A DNA stretch of 64,000 nucleotides, from positions 1-64,000 of the forward strand of contig JAQXGH010000011.1 in assembly GCA_029006195.1 (NCBI GenBank), written 5' to 3'. This document shows, piece by piece, positions 5,826 through 21,869 of this stretch (position 1 is the stretch's first letter; each line of letters starts with the position of its first letter). The DNA is from Bacillota bacterium. Lineage in GTDB: Bacteria; Bacillota; Clostridia; Peptostreptococcales; Anaerovoracaceae. Position numbers and translations under genes: made by a program. The notes beneath the pieces were generated by a model. It searched no databases and was not told the origin of the DNA. It saw only the letters and a list, made by a program, of their open reading frames with translations.

Positions 5826-7238
5826 TTAATAGTTCATTGTGTTCTTCTCATAATCAGGGTCAATGAAGTGAGTGATTGTGAAGATAGTGCTTGAGCGATC
5901 TGATTTACTAAATAATACGCTTATCATATTGATATCGTTATACTTAGCGTAGAAGTAATCGTTATCATATGATTTAAGAGCAATTTCACTACTTCCTTCT
6001 TCAGAAGGAATCATTGAACTGAAGAATGGCGCTAAACCGGATTTTTCTGAAGATGCCCAAATTCTACCTTTGCTTTCCTGCTTATACTGTGTACTGCAAA
6101 GTCCAGCTGTTATCTCATACATTTCTGATACATCGTCAAGGTATTCTTCACCTCTAGTTCTGACTTTTAATGAAAGATTGAGTTTACTGTTTTTAGTGGA
6201 AATTGAATCGATATATGATGTCGCATACACAAGTCCTGATTCTTCATCCTGGATACAATTTCCTGTATTGAGTGTGTACATAAGGCTGATAAGGTTGTTT
6301 GAAGATTTCTCTGAAAGCACCTTACCAGGCATTTTTGATTTATCCATTGTATAGACAAATTCTGAATCGAGCTTTTCAAATCGATTTTCCATTGTTTCGT
6401 ATGATTTGTCGAATTTCTTCTTGATGCTCTCTACGTTGTTGCTATCAACTACAATTGTTGCTGTAGCTGTATAAGGTGTGTAACCTTCGTGTGCCTGACA
6501 ACTGAAATCTGCTATTTCGAACAGCTTGCCAGAACTCTTCGTTGTTGCAAGTAATCCGCCGATAGTTTCGATCGGGTTAGGATAATTCTTCTTTTTATCG
6601 AATGAATAAGGATCAGTGTATTCAGGCATTGCCATTGTTATAGTGTAGCATTCTGAATATTTAGGTGATACTTTCTTTGCCTTAGCGGTTATTGTTCCTG
6701 ATGCGCCGTATGCACCCTCTGTGTAAACTGACTGGTTGCTGGCATTAATAAGACCAATTACATTGTCTTTTTTAAGGTGTTTAGCGAGAAGTGACTGTGC
6801 GCCTATTCTTTGACCGTCAGCAATCTCTGTTACTATAAGACTTATATCACCATGCTTAAGCGGCCCTAAAAGGGCGGTCATTCCTGATGACAGTACATAG
6901 AGTGAATTTTCACAGTTGTTTGTGTCAACAGAGCACTGAAGGGCAGTTGATTCTTCTTTTTTACAATCTTCTGTAGCTGGGTTAGTGATTACAATATAGT
7001 GATCTGCATTTTCGTCTACTTCCATATCACAATTAATTGCCCAGGACTCCAGGTATTCAGAAAGAAGGGTGAAGTCTAAAGATTCCTGATTAAAGGTTTC
7101 GGTCACCTCCTTGTATATGTTATCATGAGCTTCTTTGAGTTCCTGATCCCTGTTTATGTCTGCGGAACAACCAGACATAGTAAGCGATATGGTCATTACC
7201 ACAATAATTAGTAGTGGTAAGAGTCTTGTTTTTTTCAT
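5826..7238 (-). CDS. lipoprotein resembling a catalytically inactive M20/PepD peptidase
   Basis: 470 residues. A lipoprotein signal with lipobox TMSGC puts the acylated Cys at residue 24, so the protein sits on the outer face of the membrane. The remainder follows the layout of M20-family aminoacyl-histidine dipeptidases (PepD): a segment like NVIIKKPAT, a GGL..NA-like lid-domain segment, then a region matching the family's VLDKES..K.I.LLY.L..G block. Where the family has the metal ligands GHLDMV the sequence reads QCSVDTNN, the LGADDG segment is missing, and DEE.G is replaced by IADGQ. It is therefore probably a pseudo-peptidase with a binding or scaffold role. Homology is by my own pattern comparison. 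It has AAGGAG upstream and stands alone on the minus strand. Confidence 0.7.
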   Translation of the reverse strand: MKKTRLLPLLIIVVMTISLTMSGCSADINRDQELKEAHDNIYKEVTETFNQESLDFTLLSEYLESWAINCDMEVDENADHYIVITNPATEDCKKEESTALQCSVDTNNCENSLYVLSSGMTALLGPLKHGDISLIVTEIADGQRIGAQSLLAKHLKKDNVIGLINASNQSVYTEGAYGASGTITAKAKKVSPKYSECYTITMAMPEYTDPYSFDKKKNYPNPIETIGGLLATTKSSGKLFEIADFSCQAHEGYTPYTATATIVVDSNNVESIKKKFDKSYETMENRFEKLDSEFVYTMDKSKMPGKVLSEKSSNNLISLMYTLNTGNCIQDEESGLVYATSYIDSISTKNSKLNLSLKVRTRGEEYLDDVSEMYEITAGLCSTQYKQESKGRIWASSEKSGLAPFFSSMIPSEEGSSEIALKSYDNDYFYAKYNDINMISVLFSKSDRSSTIFTITHFIDPDYEKNTMNY

Positions 7239-12045: not shown

Positions 12046-13245
12046 ATGAAGATCCTGGGTATAACAGCTGAATATAATCCGTTTCATAACGGTCATCTAT
12101 ATCACATGAATAAGGCGCGTGAAGCTATAGGCGCTGACTATACAGTGATTGCCATGAGCGGCAATTTCATGCAGAGAGGCGAACCTGCGCTGATCGATAA
12201 GTGGGCAAGAAGCAGATGTGCAGTGGAGATGGGTGCTGACATAGTGGCAGAAATCCCATTTATCTTTTCGTGCAGCAGAGCAGAGCATTACGCTAAAGGC
12301 GCTGTTGATCTTTTGTCTGCTATGGGAGTAACACATATTGCCTTCGGATGTGAGGCTGAAAATGCTAGTGAGCTTATTAGGCTGGCAGGCCTTCTTGAGG
12401 AAAAGAAGGCAGATATCGAGGAATTGGTGAAGGATGCGATGAAAGATGGAGTTTCTCGCGCAAAGGCTACAGAAGCCGCCGTAAGAATCCTTATGGGCGA
12501 TGATATGGCGGGGCTCATGCTTTCACCAAATAACATTCTGGCAATAGAATACATCAAGAGAATTAATTGGTGGAAAGCTAAGGGCAGAGTGATAGAACTG
12601 CTTCCGATAAAGAGAGAAGGATCTGGTTATTATGACGTTAATGAAGCGGCTGGATATGCAGGTGCTTCAGAAATAAGAAGAATGGTTCGTCATGGTGATC
12701 TGGCGGAGTGTGAAGCTTTTGCACCTAAAAGAAGTCTTGACCTGGTGGGAGATGCAGATGCGTCAGGAAGAGACAAAAAGCTGTTCGAGCTTATACGCTA
12801 TCAGCTTATCAGAGATAGCGAAGAGGAACTTGCTGGCATATACGGAATTGGTGAAGGCATAGAGAACAGGATGAAAAAGGCTAGCGTAAGCGTTAAGGAT
12901 TATGATGAGCTTATTGATTATCTTGTTTCAAAGAGATATTCGGCAGCGGCTATAAGAAGAATGCTGTGCTACGTGCTTATGGGGCTTCGTAAGTGCCAGG
13001 GGCCTGAAGAGAAGACCCCGGAATATATAAGACTTCTGGCAGCAAGTGCCAAGGGAAGGAAGCTTATTAAGCTTGCTAAGAAAGAAGAAATTTTCGATTT
13101 GCCGCTTATTACAAACATCAACAAAACTGAAATTACAGGTGAATTAAAAAGAGATGTTAAAGCGGCAGATGTTTATAATATAATATCTAGTAGGGATCTT
13201 TATGATCACTCGGACCATGTGTTGACGCCTTATATTGAAATATAA
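12046..13245 (+). CDS. tmcAL: tRNA(Met) cytidine acetate ligase (YlbM)
   Basis: 399 residues. Enzyme family that makes N4-acetylcytidine at the wobble position of elongator tRNA(Met) from acetate and ATP. The nucleotidyltransferase motif EYNPFHNGH lies at about 8-16, MSGNFMQRGEPA follows at about 38-49, and LSPNNILAIEY near 160 is the family hallmark. Only a weak AAGGA lies about 12 nt upstream of the ATG. A link to ackA three kilobases downstream (acetate metabolism) is common in Clostridia. Confidence 0.93.
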   Translation: MKILGITAEYNPFHNGHLYHMNKAREAIGADYTVIAMSGNFMQRGEPALIDKWARSRCAVEMGADIVAEIPFIFSCSRAEHYAKGAVDLLSAMGVTHIAFGCEAENASELIRLAGLLEEKKADIEELVKDAMKDGVSRAKATEAAVRILMGDDMAGLMLSPNNILAIEYIKRINWWKAKGRVIELLPIKREGSGYYDVNEAAGYAGASEIRRMVRHGDLAECEAFAPKRSLDLVGDADASGRDKKLFELIRYQLIRDSEEELAGIYGIGEGIENRMKKASVSVKDYDELIDYLVSKRYSAAAIRRMLCYVLMGLRKCQGPEEKTPEYIRLLAASAKGRKLIKLAKKEEIFDLPLITNINKTEITGELKRDVKAADVYNIISSRDLYDHSDHVLTPYIEI

Positions 13246-13267: not shown

Positions 13268-15166
13268 ATGGAAATTCCAAACAATACAGAAAGAATACTG
13301 AAACAGCATTACCTGCTTACAGACGATAATGGGAATTCTATGGAAGCAATCGATGATATTTTTCATAGAGTTGCCGAATGCGTATCTAGAGCTGATGTGA
13401 TCTATGATATCAGATCTGATGTTGATGAAACTGAGAGAAAGTTTTATGAAATGATGGCGAATCTGGATTTTCTTCCAGGTTCTGCTACGCTTATGAATGC
13501 GGGTAAAAATAATGGTCAGCTGGCATCAAGCTTTGTTATACCTGTTGAAGATAGCATCGATTCCATTTTCAGCGCAATTAGGCAATGTGCTCTTATAAAT
13601 AAGAGTGGGGCAGGTATGGGCTTTAGCTTTTCTAAGATACGCCCTGAAGGCAGCAAGGTAGGAACTACCGGCGAAACAGCCAGCGGTCCTTTGGGATTCA
13701 TGAAGGTATTTGATGCGGCTTTAGGTTCTGTGAGAAATAATACTTCTGACAGATTCGGAAGTGCCGGCGTATTAAGAATAGATCATCCGGATATTCTGAA
13801 ATTCATTGAATGTAAGAACGATGATTCTGAATTCAGCAACTTCAATCTCTATGTAGGCATTACAGAGAAGTTTATGATCACTGCTGAAAATGGTATGGAA
13901 TATAATCTTATTGACCCTAATACAGGTGAAGCCGTTTTATCTGTAAATGCCAGAGAGGTCATGGATAAGATTGTAGATGCTATTTGGAATACTGGGCAGC
14001 CGGGCATTATATTCCTGGATAGAATAAATAGCGACAATGTTGTTCCGGGTCAAGGTAATATTGAAGCGATGAATTCATGGGGCGAGCAGCCGCTGCTGCC
14101 TTACGAAAGCTGCGCTATGGGTTCTATAAATCTGACACATATGCTTACTGAAAAAGACGGCAGACATGTTATTGATATAAGCAAGCTTGAAGATACAATA
14201 GTTTTGGCTGTACATTTCCTGGATAACGTTATTGATGTAAACTGTTATCCGCTTGATGCTATCGAAGAGCAGACTAAGCTCACAAGAAAAATCGGGCTTG
14301 GAATCATGGGCTGGGCTGATACACTGCTGAAGATGAGAGTTCCGTACAATTCTGATGAAGCGGTTGCTCTTGGTGAAAGGCTTATGTCAATGATTTCGGA
14401 AATCGGCAAAGATGCATCAGCAGAACTTGCTGAAACAAGGGGAGCGTTCCCTCTGTTCGAAGAAAGTACACTGCCTCAGGATGTTAAACTGAGGAATGCA
14501 GCGATCACAACGATCGCATGTGGAGATCCTATCGCAGAAATAGCTGGATGCTCAGAAGGAATCGAGCCTATAGAATCATATGTTGCCATAATTGCAGGTG
14601 ATGATGGAGAAGATATCATAACAGTATATCCTGCACTGGTTGAAGAGCTTAAGGCTAGAAATCTCTATGGTGAAGCTGTCTTGAGAAAAATCGCAGATAA
14701 CGGATCGCTTAGGGGAATAGATGAAATTCCTGCAGAAATGAAGAGACTCTTTATCTCTGCTAAGGATCTTAGCCCTGATTATCATATTCTCATGCAGGCT
14801 GCTTTCCAGAAAGATACTGATAGTGCTGTTTCAAAGGCTATAAACTTAAGAAAAGACGAAACAAAAGAGAATGTGAGAACGATTCTTAACCTGGCATTTA
14901 GAACAGGATGTAAGGTTATTAGAGTTTGCAAGCCTGAAACAAATAATGCTGGCAGGGACCTGGATTCGGAATACTTCGATATGCCTGAAAATATCGAAAC
15001 GCCTGAAGTGATTGAAGAAGCGCCTTCAACAGAACTCACTACACAGAATGTGGTTTCAAATGTATCGTTAAAGCCTGGAAACGGTGATCTCTACATCAGC
15101 GTAAACTATGATGGAAATGGTGTTTGTAACATATCTACAAGCATTAAAACACACGAAAATGAATAG
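13268..15166 (+). CDS. class II (NrdJ-type) ribonucleotide reductase homologue lacking the radical cysteine
   Basis: 632 residues from the ATG at 13268 (AAGG 7 nt upstream; an in-frame ATG at 13235 overlaps tmcAL). Long stretches match adenosylcobalamin-dependent RNRs: LDFLPGSATLMNAG, KSGAGMGFSFSKIRPEGS, ASGPLGFMKVFDAA, DHPDILKFIECK, PLLPYESC, VHFLDNVIDVN, RKIGLGIMGWAD, MQAAFQKDTD and a C-terminal LYISVNYD domain. Yet the NPCGE motif that carries the thiyl-radical Cys reads NSWGE (Trp271), the first redox Cys is Ser88, GGxRRGA reads NNTSDRFGSA, and APTGTIS is replaced by ACGDPIAE. Only the second redox Cys (Cys282) remains. It cannot reduce nucleotides by the known mechanism, so it is probably a pseudoenzyme. 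The frame is open and codon use normal. Confidence 0.85.
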   Translation: MEIPNNTERILKQHYLLTDDNGNSMEAIDDIFHRVAECVSRADVIYDIRSDVDETERKFYEMMANLDFLPGSATLMNAGKNNGQLASSFVIPVEDSIDSIFSAIRQCALINKSGAGMGFSFSKIRPEGSKVGTTGETASGPLGFMKVFDAALGSVRNNTSDRFGSAGVLRIDHPDILKFIECKNDDSEFSNFNLYVGITEKFMITAENGMEYNLIDPNTGEAVLSVNAREVMDKIVDAIWNTGQPGIIFLDRINSDNVVPGQGNIEAMNSWGEQPLLPYESCAMGSINLTHMLTEKDGRHVIDISKLEDTIVLAVHFLDNVIDVNCYPLDAIEEQTKLTRKIGLGIMGWADTLLKMRVPYNSDEAVALGERLMSMISEIGKDASAELAETRGAFPLFEESTLPQDVKLRNAAITTIACGDPIAEIAGCSEGIEPIESYVAIIAGDDGEDIITVYPALVEELKARNLYGEAVLRKIADNGSLRGIDEIPAEMKRLFISAKDLSPDYHILMQAAFQKDTDSAVSKAINLRKDETKENVRTILNLAFRTGCKVIRVCKPETNNAGRDLDSEYFDMPENIETPEVIEEAPSTELTTQNVVSNVSLKPGNGDLYISVNYDGNGVCNISTSIKTHENE

Positions 15167-15278: not shown

Positions 15279-16487
15279 ATGAAAGTTTTAGTAATTAACT
15301 GCGGAAGTTCATCACTGAAGTATCAGGTTCTTGATATGACAAATGAAGTTCTGGAATGTAAGGGTCTTGTTGAAAGAATCGGTATGGACGGTTCTGTTAT
15401 TACTCACGAAAAGACAGGCATGGACAAGTTCAAGCTCGTAGTTCCTATGGAAGATCATAAGGCTGCTATCGGACACGTTCTCATGGCTATTCAGGATGAA
15501 AACCATGGCGTAATCAAGAGCATGGATGAAATTGGTGCTGTAGGTCACAGAGTTGTACACGCTGGAGAAAAGTATGACAAGTCAGTTCTTATCACTGATG
15601 AAGTTTATAAGGCACTGGAAGAATGTATTCCACTCGCTCCACTTCACAACCCACCTAACCTTCTCGGTATCGACGCTTGCAAGCAGCTGATGCCAAAAAC
15701 TCCAATGGTAGCAGTATTCGATACAGCTTTCCACCAGACTATGCCTCCTGAATCATATATCTATGCTATTCCTTATGAATATTATGAAAAGCATGGAATC
15801 AGAAGATACGGTTTCCACGGAACATCACATAAGTATGTTGCTGAAAGAGCTGCTGATATCCTCAACGTTAGCCTTGATGATCTGAAGCTGATCACTTGTC
15901 ACCTTGGTAACGGCGCATCAGTATCAGCTATCAAGAGAGGTAAGTGCATCGATACATCAATGGGCTTCACTCCACTTGAAGGTCTCGTAATGGGAACTAG
16001 ATCAGGTGACATTGACCCTGCTATCGTTACTTACATGAGAGAAGTTGAAAACCTTGACCAGGGCAAAGCTAACGAAATCCTGAACAAGAAGTCAGGCGTA
16101 CTTGGTATTTCAGGCATTTCAAGTGACTTCAGAGATCTGGAAGAAGCTGCAGCAGATGGAAACGAAAGAGCTATGCTGGCACTGAAGGTATTCGCTCACA
16201 AGGTAAGATTCTACATCGGTGCTTACATCGCTGAAATGAACGGTTGTGACGCTATCGTATTCACAGCAGGTCTTGGTGAAAACGGTATCGACATGAGAGA
16301 CGTTATCTGTAATGACCTGGGCAACCTGGGCATCAAGATTGATGTTGTTAAGAACAAGGTTAGAGGTAAGGAAACTATCATCTCAAGAGAAGACTCAAAG
16401 ATCAAGGTTATCCTCGTACCAACTAACGAAGAACTCATGATTGCTAGAGATACATACAATATCGTAACTGGCAAGGGTGTTAAGTAA
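15279..16487 (+). CDS. ackA: acetate kinase
   Basis: Interconverts acetyl phosphate and acetate with ATP synthesis, the main substrate-level ATP step of acetogenic fermentation. 402 residues. The start at 15279 follows ACAGGAGG and gives the family opening [16 protein letters not shown]; the in-frame ATG at 15222 lies at the transcription start and is not used. The phosphate motifs [11 protein letters not shown] and [20 protein letters not shown] are intact. Codon use (GGT, CTC, ATC, AAG) is that of a highly expressed gene. No pta gene is adjacent. Confidence 0.97.
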
Positions 16488-16746: not shown

Positions 16747-18114
16747 ATGATTCACCAGTATCAATTAAATGGATATAACATAGTTCTGGATATATTTAGT
16801 GGAGCCATCCATATCGTGGATGATTTCGCATATGATGCCATCAAAATTTGCGATGAAGAAGGTAGAGATAATCTCAGGGAAAAGCTCGTATTAAAGTACG
16901 CTGAAAACAATGATATAAGCGAAGAAGATATCGATATGATAATCGAAGATATCGATGAGCTTAAGTCGGCAGGCAAGCTTTTTACCGAGGACATCTTTGA
17001 GGCTAATGCATTTGATCTTAAGGCACGTCATACAGAAGTTAAGGCGCTTTGCCTGCATGTATCACATGCCTGCAATCTTACATGTAGTTACTGCTTCGCT
17101 AGACAGGGTAACTTCTGCGGCGAAGAAGCTCTTATGAGCCTGGATACAGCTAAGGCTGCAATTGACTTCCTCATCGAGAACTCGGGCGACAGATATAATC
17201 TCGAAGTTGACTTTTTCGGTGGCGAACCGCTTCTTAACTGGGAAGTTGTTAAGGGGACTGTTGAATATGCCAGAAGCATCGAGAAGGAGCACAATAAGAA
17301 TTTCAGATTCACGCTTACAACAAACGGCATGAATATTGATGACGAGGTCATCGAGTTTTCAAATAAGGAAATGCACAATGTTGTATTAAGCCTTGATGGC
17401 CGTAAGGAAGTTCATGACAGATTCAGAAAGACTCCGTCTGGCGCTGGAAGCTATGATACTATCGTTCCTAAATTCCAGGAATTTGTAAAGAGGCGGGGTG
17501 ACAAGGTTTACTACATCTGAGGAACATACACAAAGAACAATCTTGATTTATTTAACGACATTATCCATATGGCAGATTTAGGATTTACTGAATTGTCAAT
17601 GGAACCTGTTGTAACTGAACCTGGAGATCCTGCTGGATTAACAGAAGCTGACCTTCCGGCTATCTATGAACAGTATGAAAAGCTGGCTATAGAAATGATA
17701 AAGAGAAAGAAGGAAGGAAATCCTTTCACTTTCTATCACTATATGATCGATCTGACAGGCGGACCGTGTATCTATAAGAGAATTTCCGGATGTGGTGCTG
17801 GTACTGAATATCTGGCAGTTACACCATGGGGCGATCTTTATCCGTGCCACCAGTTCGTAAATGACCCTGAATATAAGATGGGTGATCTTAAGAACGGGGT
17901 TACAGAAATTGATAAGAGAGATAGTTTCAAACTTTGCAACTCATACTCGAGAAAAGAATGCCTGGATTGTTGGGCTAGACTCTACTGCAGCGGTGGATGT
18001 GCTGCTAATTCATATCACGCAACAGGTGATATTACAGGTGTATATGAGTACGGATGTGATCTCTTTAAGAAGAGAATTGAATGTGCTATAATGATGGAAA
18101 TTGCTCAAATGTAG
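16747..18114 (+). pseudogene. SCIFF radical SAM maturase, complete but for one in-frame TGA
   Basis: One frame runs from ATG 16747 to TAG 18114 (456 codons, the normal length), interrupted only by TGA at 17518-17520 (codon 258). The N-terminal RRE-like region and the radical SAM triad Cys109, Cys113, Cys116 (CNLTCSYC) lie before it. After it come the SPASM auxiliary-cluster cysteines (GGPC, SGCGAG, YPCHQF, LCNSYSRKECLDC, YCSGGC, YGC). Flanking sequence reads KVYYI-stop-GTYTKNNLD; the family has YY(V/I)RGT(F/Y)T, so an Arg codon was lost, by one base from CGA or AGA. A GGGAG site precedes the start. Either it is a recent nonsense mutation, a sequencing error, or UGA is read through. A restart at ATG 17569 would make only the SPASM half. 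UGA ends other genes here. Confidence 0.9.
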
Positions 18115-19928: not shown

Positions 19929-20894
19929 ATGACAAAAATTGATATATTCTCAGGTTTTCTGGGAGCTGGTAAGACAACTTTGATTAGAAAGCTGCTGGCA
20001 GATGGTTATGATAAGGAAAAAATCGTTCTTATCGAGAATGAATTCGGCGAAATCGGTATCGACCGCGGATTCCTTTCGGATGCTGGCGTAGAAATTACAG
20101 AAATGAATTCAGGATGTATCTGTTGCACTCTGGTTGGCGACTTCGCAGAAGCCATGAAGAAGGTAATCGCAGAATATGCACCTGACAGAATTATTATCGA
20201 ACCATCAGGCGTTGGTAAGCTTAGTGATGTTGCAAAGGCTGCAGCCGGCGTAGAAGGTGTACAGATCGATTCAATGGTAGCTGTTGTTGATCCTAGAAAG
20301 TGCAGAATGTACATGGAAAACTTCGGCGAATTCTACAGTGACCAGATCGAATCTGCAGGTACTATCGTAGTAAGCCACGGCGACAATGTTGATGATGATA
20401 CTTTAGCAGAAGCTTTTGATATCATCAAGGAACACAACGCTGATGCGCCAGTTGTTGCTACTGCATGGGATGCACTTTCAGGAAGCCAGATCATGGCTGA
20501 ATTCAAGCCTGGCAAGGAATATGCTCCTAAGCACGATCACGGTACAGACTGCACATGCGGTTGCCATGATCACGATCACGATCACGACCATGATCACCAT
20601 CACCACGGTCACGATCATCACCATGCTGATGAAATCTTTGACAGCGTAGGCATTGAAACAATTCGCAAGTTCACTGAAGAAGATATCGCAGGAATTCTCG
20701 AAGGTTTTGAAGCTAAGCCAAATATCTTAAGAGCTAAGGGAATGGTTCAGTCAAAGAATGGCGGTTGGATCTTCTTTGATTATGTTCCAGGAACAAAGGA
20801 TATCAGAGAAGGCAGCGCTCAGACAGTAGGTAAGGCTTGCGTAATCGGAACAGGTCTTGATGAAGCTGAAATCAAGGGTGTTTTCTCACTGTAG
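19929..20894 (+). CDS. CobW/COG0523-family GTPase with His-rich metal-binding stretch
   Basis: 321 residues. Metallochaperone-type G3E GTPase. Walker A GFLGAGKTT at about 9-17, the switch segment ENEFGEIGIDRG near 37-48, the metal motif CICC at about 64-67, and EPSGVGK. Between about 195 and 222 lies a CTCGC motif followed by a run of alternating His and Asp, a probable zinc, nickel or cobalt store. A CobW C-terminal domain follows. AAAGGAG precedes the ATG. The partner gene begins 12 bp downstream. The target metal is not evident; no Zur box or permease is adjacent. Confidence 0.9.
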   Translation: MTKIDIFSGFLGAGKTTLIRKLLADGYDKEKIVLIENEFGEIGIDRGFLSDAGVEITEMNSGCICCTLVGDFAEAMKKVIAEYAPDRIIIEPSGVGKLSDVAKAAAGVEGVQIDSMVAVVDPRKCRMYMENFGEFYSDQIESAGTIVVSHGDNVDDDTLAEAFDIIKEHNADAPVVATAWDALSGSQIMAEFKPGKEYAPKHDHGTDCTCGCHDHDHDHDHDHHHHGHDHHHADEIFDSVGIETIRKFTEEDIAGILEGFEAKPNILRAKGMVQSKNGGWIFFDYVPGTKDIREGSAQTVGKACVIGTGLDEAEIKGVFSL

Positions 20895-20906
20895 TGGAGG
20901 TTTAAG

Positions 20907-21869
20907 ATGCTCGAATCAAAATGGACAAAGCAGGTTCCTGTATATCTTTTTACAGGATTCCTGGAGTCAGGTAAGACATCATTTATTATAGATTCACTGT
21001 CAGAGCAGGATTTCGCAGCAAACGACAGAAATCTGGTTATCGTAACAGAGAAGGGAATGACACCTATCTCAAAGGATAAGTTCCCTGGTAAGAGTGTAGA
21101 GGTTGAATTTGTCACAGACAAAAACAATTTTTGCCCGGATTACCTTAAAATTCTTAACGAAAAGTATAGACCTGAAAAGATCTTGATCGAATGCAATGGC
21201 ATGTGGATGCTTGATGATATCTATAACAATATCCCTGAAAACTGGGTAATCGTTCAGGAATTCACATTCGCTGAAGCGGCTACATTCATGATGTATAACA
21301 ACAACATGAGAAATCTGGTATTTGATAAACTCAAATATGCAGATGTGGTTGCCTTTAATAGATTCAACCCTTCATCAATGGATGTTATGGATTACCATAA
21401 GATTGTAAGAGTTGCCAACAGAAGTTCGCAGATCGTATATGAAACTGCTGATGGCCAGATCAAAGTGGATGATATAGAAGATCCTCTTCCATTTGATGAT
21501 ACTAAGGACTTTATTGAACTTGACGATAGAGACTATGCATACTGGTATAGAGATTTTGCTGAAAATCATTCCAAGTATGTGGGTAAGAAGATGAAGTTCA
21601 AGTGCATGATCACAACACAGGGTGAAAGCCCATATGCTGATTACGGCGCTGGAAGACATGTTATGACATGTTGCGTTGATGACATTGAATTCATGGGACT
21701 TCTTTGTCAGAGCAAGTGTGATGATAAACCGAAGCATGGAATGTGGGCAATGATCACAGGAACTATCGTTCAGGGTCCGGTTCTTCTTGATGGAAGCTAT
21801 CCTATAATGGAAGTTGAATCACTGAAGCCTGCTGAGCCACCTGAAGAACAGGTTGCTAATTACTATTAA
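20907..21869 (+). CDS. CobW-like GTPase fused to a YcgQ/DUF1980-like C-terminal domain
   Basis: 320 residues. The N-terminal half is a G3E GTPase with P-loop GFLESGKTS at about 14-22, but the CxCC metal motif is replaced by ECNGMW. After about residue 205 the sequence changes to a small beta-rich domain (KYVGKKMKFKCMI, HVMTCCVDDIEFMGLLC, MWAMITGTI) that resembles the C-terminal domain of the YcgQ/TIGR03943 permease-associated proteins. It probably forms a heteromeric metal-handling pair with the upstream GTPase. A GGAGG precedes the ATG and a bidirectional terminator follows. Confidence 0.82.
   Translation: MLESKWTKQVPVYLFTGFLESGKTSFIIDSLSEQDFAANDRNLVIVTEKGMTPISKDKFPGKSVEVEFVTDKNNFCPDYLKILNEKYRPEKILIECNGMWMLDDIYNNIPENWVIVQEFTFAEAATFMMYNNNMRNLVFDKLKYADVVAFNRFNPSSMDVMDYHKIVRVANRSSQIVYETADGQIKVDDIEDPLPFDDTKDFIELDDRDYAYWYRDFAENHSKYVGKKMKFKCMITTQGESPYADYGAGRHVMTCCVDDIEFMGLLCQSKCDDKPKHGMWAMITGTIVQGPVLLDGSYPIMEVESLKPAEPPEEQVANYY

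Follow-up and report, generated by a model that had tools for sequence, protein, structure and literature searches.

The open reading frame (ORF) at 13268..15166 on the + strand of the window (the whole stretch of 64,000 nucleotides that was analysed, from a Bacillota draft genome) encodes a protein of the class II ribonucleotide reductase (RNR) family, NrdJ, which has very likely, to judge from the residues that it lacks, lost its RNR activity. Its retention for a role outside catalysis is the reading that we favour, with slow decay as its serious, and main, rival; we lean slightly towards the explanation that an ordinary AdoCbl-dependent class II RNR has turned pseudoenzyme, relieved by the class III enzyme NrdD, with its fold still under selection. 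RNR genes are usually taken as either working or lost, and a bacterial RNR whose frame is preserved but whose catalytic face is gone, together with an intact orthologue in synteny in a sister species and a likely cause in the form of another RNR class, would be a natural experiment in the conversion of a radical enzyme into a pseudoenzyme. If this is true, a pseudo-RNR has been caught while the intact orthologue still sits at the same locus in a sister species.

The ORF and its family assignment

The ORF runs open from its ATG start to its stop over 632 codons with no internal stops, as had been claimed when an intact frame was first proposed for it. Pfam models matched its product for the PF02867 barrel (346 bits, cut-off 23.9) and PF00317 (56 bits), the RNR barrel and the all-alpha domain of class II RNRs both being present, and the protein passed the TIGR02504 (NrdJ_Z) model with 516 bits against a cut-off of 400. 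It fell short of the PRK08665 equivalog model NF006417 (716.7 bits against a cut-off of 961), which an intact sister gene clears with 1200 bits. A phmmer search of solved structures matched Thermotoga NrdJ (1xjk/1xje) at E 6e-88. Judged by these scores the protein is a member of the class II RNR (NrdJ) sequence family, by a match not due to chance, and it does not belong with the class IIIh NrdD-type enzymes, its best sequence and structural matches being class II NrdJ. Annotation by the Pfam and TIGR02504 barrel models, both of which are above cut-off, would label the ORF a working B12-dependent RNR.

An AlphaFold2 model of the protein (pTM 0.80, pLDDT 78.7) was of low confidence at residues 78-83, in loop 2 (157-162) and over the greater part of 558-632, and its top Foldseek match was Thermotoga NrdJ 1xje (TM 0.82), the nearest solved structure. 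As the input alignment consisted of the ORF protein and seven canonical NrdJs, and thus biases the model towards the NrdJ fold, the prediction is compatible with that fold, not proof of it.

Sequencing error or a frameshift was rejected as the cause of what follows, since the replacements are scattered along a frame that is uninterrupted. An assembly artefact or chimera, which the state of the draft genome (85% complete, 55 contigs) might bring to mind, is highly improbable: the contig is at least 64 kb long and shares synteny with the intact orthologue L024, the dispersed replacements lie in an open frame, and the GC3 of the ORF (0.34) is near that of four neighbouring genes (0.37-0.40).

Loss of the catalytic apparatus

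The features of the ORF, all on the + strand, are as follows.

13268..15166, + strand: candidate nrdJ-derived pseudo-RNR ORF, 632 amino acids (ORF list, Pfam, NCBIfam, phmmer, alignment)
13529..13531, + strand: Ser88, at the C134 position of Thermotoga NrdJ; Cys in 29/29 aligned relatives
13721..13765, + strand: residues 152-166, once specificity loop 2 with the stretch leading into it; 9/10 invariant residues changed
14078..14080, + strand: Trp271 (TGG), aligned with the radical cysteine C322; NSWGE replaces NPCGE
14111..14113, + strand: Cys282, at the C333 position, kept (alignment)
14519..14536, + strand: residues 418-423, once the phosphate-binding loop; CGDPIA, where most relatives have PTGT[IL]S
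14912..15166, + strand: residues 549-632, divergent tail, mostly of low confidence; TSCPD-like start, redox-cysteine tail deleted

The original prediction had set Ser88, Trp271 and Cys282 opposite C134, C322 and C333, and the phmmer alignment to Thermotoga NrdJ gives exactly this placement. In an alignment of 30 sequences these three columns are Cys in all 29 other NrdJ proteins, and N269, G272 and E273, invariant in the same 29, are kept in the ORF protein. The losses predicted for GGxRRGA and APTGTIS are equally real: where most relatives have QGGxRRGAN in loop 2, the ORF protein has NNTSDRFGS (RRGAN to DRFGS), and APTGT(I/L)S has become ACGDPIA. A further loss had been overlooked, as the C-terminal redox tail is deleted; the protein ends within the TSCPD-like segment, 110, 114 and 115 residues short of its relatives N24, N25 and L070 respectively, and the missing tail bears redox cysteines in L024, L025 and L070. 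A remnant of this tail was looked for downstream of the ORF and none was found. If anything, then, the original observation was not only correct but understated.

The thiyl-radical cysteine that an NrdJ enzyme carries in its finger loop (NPCGE) is thus Trp271, its reductant cysteine pair is Ser88 and Cys282, and specificity loop 2, the phosphate loop and the C-terminal redox cysteines are all lost from the protein. The sequence argues strongly that RNR chemistry is lost, two of the three catalytic cysteines having gone together with these other parts. As to the nucleotide or cobalamin sensing first suggested as a possible role, D95 and R125, which we take to be effector-site positions (E. coli numbering), are invariant among the aligned relatives and retained here, though the loss of loop 2 would argue against a normal effector read-out.

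The class IIIh enzyme tmNrdD, as described in PMC4493059, likewise lacks the radical cysteine at its fingertip (where it has Ile) and is active, which warns that a missing fingertip cysteine alone is no proof of inactivity. On this precedent the ORF protein could be a still-active RNR in which the radical is carried by another residue, such as Trp271, or by a cysteine at a new position, and we regard this as very unlikely. tmNrdD differs in being class III and in representing a whole active subclass, whereas the ORF protein appears to have lost the rest of the chemistry too: the reductant cysteine (now S88), loop 2, the phosphate loop and the redox tail. Recruitment of the barrel to a new enzymatic reaction with no need of a thiyl radical would fit the retention of N269 and E273 of the active-site motif, of C282 and of the predicted fold; one sequence defines no new conserved motif, and the phosphate loop is lost, and we consider this explanation improbable.

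Relatives of the ORF protein

The original prediction had named, as a check, whether NSWGE is shared by close relatives; it is absent from every relative read. All three cysteines are kept in 40/40 relatives read by alignment (the 29 of the main alignment and 11 family members, L103-L113), and they are also present in L007, L012, L016 and L090, which were read by pattern; L007, L012 and L016 stand outside the alignment as they were missed by the motif search, the L007 motif being NPCAE and the first cysteine of L012 lying in a different frame from the other two. L114, L026, L088 and L089 were readable in part only. Searches with the ORF protein showed no clade of NSWGE proteins; they covered 49 genomes of the genus, 349 of the family and 297 of the order, in sets that overlap, and the catalytic positions were read at the loci of the best matches among those listed, above about 30% identity. 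On this survey the apparently dead form of NrdJ is a one-genome case, and no relative found conserves it.

Intein-like inserts were seen exactly before the NrdJ radical cysteine (NP|C...HN|CGEQ) in L012 (from Fervidicella metallireducens), L016 (the L021 gene), L089 and L090, and inserts in L026 and L114 start similarly. Imprecise loss of an intein at this point was considered as a source of Trp271 and set aside, as it is an idea for that residue alone and leaves the other losses unexplained.

The locus and the origin of the gene

The ORF lies between two genes, which we presume from their sequences to be tmcAL and ackA (acetate kinase).

12046..13245, + strand: tmcAL-like gene, 22 bp upstream of the ORF; same neighbour in the intact orthologue L024
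15182..15210, + strand: promoter-like site TTGAAA-17-TATAAT (11/12), between the ORF and ackA
15279..16487, + strand: ackA-like acetate kinase gene, downstream of the ORF; same neighbour in L024

An nrdJ-like gene was present in 4 of 49 genus genomes, the other three carriers being canonical. Among the 18 genomes with completeness of 90% or more and contamination of 5% or less, one has such a gene. The G061 gene (L024) is intact, 54% identical, and stands in the order tmcAL-nrdJ-ackA as in the window. That of G063 (L025) is also intact and 54% identical and occupies a different locus, next to genes that we take to be of secretion or pilus type, and this genome has a second, partial match (L026); that of G002 (L014) is 48% identical and intact up to the contig end. 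The surroundings of ackA were surveyed at 30 genus loci, the window's own included: tmcAL lies upstream in 27 of the 29 others, the gap to ackA being 505 bp at one of these and 53-145 bp at the remaining 26, and none of the 29 showed a remnant of nrdJ near ackA (E 0.01). An ackA match was also present in 17 more genomes of the genus; in the three of them that were viewed, tmcAL adjoins ackA without nrdJ (G063 and G002) or has nrdJ between it and ackA (G061). The shared tmcAL-nrdJ-ackA order shows the window ORF, as far as synteny and sequence can tell, to be an orthologue of an intact nrdJ that was altered in place, in a genus in which nrdJ is not seen in most assemblies.

This distribution also bears on the rival explanation that the gene is simply decaying, NrdJ having become redundant beside NrdD after being active for most of its branch, with constraint lost recently; we judge this rather unlikely. 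In its favour, absence is the rule in the genus, with nrdJ not found in 45 of the 49 assemblies, including 17 of the 18 most complete, and tmcAL standing upstream of ackA without nrdJ in 27 of the 29 other loci. A decaying frame might still be open as the decay is young, or by weak selection for translation through the operon. The promoter-like site before ackA slightly weakens this argument from polarity, and is itself at most suggestive, as six such sites (at least 9/12) were observed in the region against 7.8 expected in shuffles.

Scans of the window, L024, L025 and L014 at the gathering score of Rfam gave no cobalamin riboswitch or other RNA control element, their sole match being a 5S rRNA in the window.

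Other RNR genes in the genome

The presence of another intact nrd gene, proposed as a further check, was established: the genome carries one nrdD, followed by nrdG, which scored 936 bits against a cut-off of 657 for NF006732 and has the glycyl-radical motif RTCGYIG. No second PF02867 gene and no class I beta subunit were found in the 85% complete assembly. The idea of a paralogue beside an intact NrdJ was rejected, as PF02867 matches this ORF alone (15% of the genome may be missing), and loss of B12 as the reason for the loss of NrdJ is unsupported, as three B12-binding-domain matches remain in the genome.

The nrdD of the window genome is about 77% identical to the copy in three genus members and about 29% identical to the nrdD of five others; among the nine sequences compared there are two nrdD types in the genus, about 29% identical. 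Match lengths suggest that the second type is the commoner in the genus and that the type of the window genome, which lies at another locus, is the rarer. G023 has the commoner type upstream of recG, where the window has none. Neither type was found in the assembly of G061 (91% complete), which carries the intact nrdJ; the NRDD model gave one short 30-bit match there, and G061 may therefore rely on NrdJ for its dNTPs.

We infer from this that a NrdJ-reliant ancestor may have gained the other type of NrdD, after which NrdJ would have been released from catalysis. Synthesis of dNTPs would now be carried out by NrdD and NrdG, and the redundant NrdJ would have had its catalytic face eroded with the rest of its fold still selected, leaving as its product a folded, non-catalytic protein. 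Such a protein might most likely act by binding via its retained dimer/effector face (D95, R125), conceivably in the form of a dimer that binds dNTPs, or by partnering the DNA-precursor machinery. More specifically, we tentatively put forward as a possibility, held with less confidence than the change to a pseudoenzyme itself, that a bacterial pseudo-RNR has been kept as a regulator or scaffold after takeover by class III, for example by binding dNTPs as a dimer and acting on NrdD, on replication or on the use of cobalamin.

Rate and distribution of the changes

A tree grouped the ORF protein with L070, N24 and N25 (support 0.972), the path from their common node being 1.04 substitutions per site for the ORF protein against 0.32-0.39 for the three sisters, roughly threefold. 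Its identity to both N24 and N25 is 53.5%, while that between N24 and N25 is 81.3%, a contrast that is seen neither in ackA (83.8% between the window genome and G061, 88.5% between G061 and G063) nor in tmcAL (45.0% and 50.0% respectively). Among 10 genus genomes, tmcAL identity is 41-65% and that of the neighbouring ackA 83-98%. Acceleration of the flanks as a cause was rejected, as neither tmcAL (fast in all 10) nor ackA (slow) singles out the window genome. The long branch and the C-terminal tail already deleted are both as a decaying gene would have them.

Of the columns invariant in the 29 other sequences, 40/141 are changed in the ORF protein, compared to 0-12 of 141-153 when 11 of the 29 relatives were each left out in turn. 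The lost columns are clustered (44 runs where 58.3 would be expected, P 0.0024; 18 adjacent pairs of lost columns where 11.1 would be, P 0.004). Relative to the family rate, change was 4.0 at residues 151-175 (loop 2), 3.6 at 426-450 (just past the phosphate loop), 4.65 at 551-575 and 2.6 at 76-100 (around S88), against 0.75-1.06 in the five 25-residue windows of 276-400 and 1.1-2.0 in most others. Within catalytic segments, which were chosen post hoc from the alignment, 30/59 invariant residues are lost compared to 10/82 elsewhere, suggesting that the losses cluster largely within the catalytic segments. Over residues 1-559 there are no indels relative to N24, N25 and L070 (four one-residue differences relative to N14), and this, together with clustered losses and a region 276-400 that holds the family rate, counts against decay.

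Evidence on selection

Starting from three intact sister genes, neutral evolution was simulated under each of two base compositions, with 200 runs per setting and with substitutions but no indels. When 28% of invariant codons had been replaced, the mean number of stops was 9.0-12.3 and no run was stop-free in any of the six settings. The stop-free ORF, where neutral loss of all 40 invariant residues would be expected to leave some 9-12 stops, speaks against the decay reading. At 10% neutral loss, the expectation falls to 3.1-4.2 stops and 1-5.5% of the simulated genes were stop-free, and a short neutral phase is therefore possible, as decay would have it. The lost residues were not significantly more conservative than the simulated ones: their mean BLOSUM score was -0.475 and that of the simulated ones lay at -0.64 to -0.79, a difference of no more than about 1.3 sd.

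A codon model gave omega 0.12 on the ORF branch and 0.037 on the others, with omega=1 rejected (2dlnL 24.1), and two other taxon sets gave 0.11 and 0.05 with the same rejection (2dlnL 27.6 and 25.4); a higher omega on the ORF branch than elsewhere was weakly supported (2dlnL 4.5, 2.1 and 3.8). As dS is saturated and some branch lengths lie at their bound, omega is poorly estimated by these fits, and the usable result is therefore that omega is below 1 on average. Using the ackA branch as a clock (t 1.65-2.1), omega could be near 0.45 by our estimate. Codon fits for tmcAL were discarded, as parameter bounds were reached in 2/3 models.

The original prediction that selection keeps the protein therefore stands in part: the ORF carries no stop, and no indel in residues 1-559, where 9-12 stops would be expected, and omega=1 is rejected, but the claim is unproven, with dS saturated and a short, late neutral phase possible. 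It also counts against the pseudoenzyme reading that it rests on a single genome, with no relative found in which the apparently dead form is conserved.

Comparison with known systems

The closest known proteins are NrdJ of the PRK08665/NF006417 type (L024, L025 and L070), to which the ORF protein is 53-54% identical with the same predicted fold, L024 being orthologous and at the same locus. Compared to canonical NrdJ it keeps N269, E273 and C282 and is without C134, C322, RRGAN, APTGTxS and the redox tail, scoring 717 against the equivalog cut-off of 961.

PMC4520616 describes a split NrdJ in Pseudomonas, where NrdJa is catalytic and its tail is supplied by NrdJb; NrdJa alone shows no more than low activity with DTT, and nrdJb mutants are not rescued in vivo. 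Like the ORF protein, NrdJa has a catalytic barrel without a redox tail on the same chain; unlike it, NrdJa has kept catalysis. As a precedent for RNR large-subunit homologues that work without catalysis, PMC5469499 describes the R1 homologues of beta-herpesviruses (HCMV UL45 and MCMV M45) as inactive, with most catalytic residues absent, and as having non-RNR roles. These are viral, lineage-wide and homologous to cellular R1, and we claim neither recent common descent nor a common target with the ORF protein. No dead NrdJ from bacteria was found in the titles and abstract openings of the open-licence papers searched.

Other genes of the window

Three further places in the window drew attention. 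At 16747-18114 (+) lies a radical SAM/SPASM gene, presumably SCIFF-maturase-like, with a single in-frame stop at 17518-17520 and a frame that is open on either side, the pieces matching PF04055 and PF13186 separately. Two adjoining genes at 19929-21869 (+) have similarity to CobW-family GTPases, weak in the second, which has a TIGR03943-like tail, all matches being under curated cut-offs. The gene at 5826-7238 (-) encodes a lipoprotein-like protein homologous to beta-Ala-His dipeptidase; it scores 70 bits for TIGR01893, where the cut-off is 344, and matches no Pfam model. By eye the usual metal-binding motif seems to be missing from it, and it is perhaps a second non-catalytic enzyme homologue.
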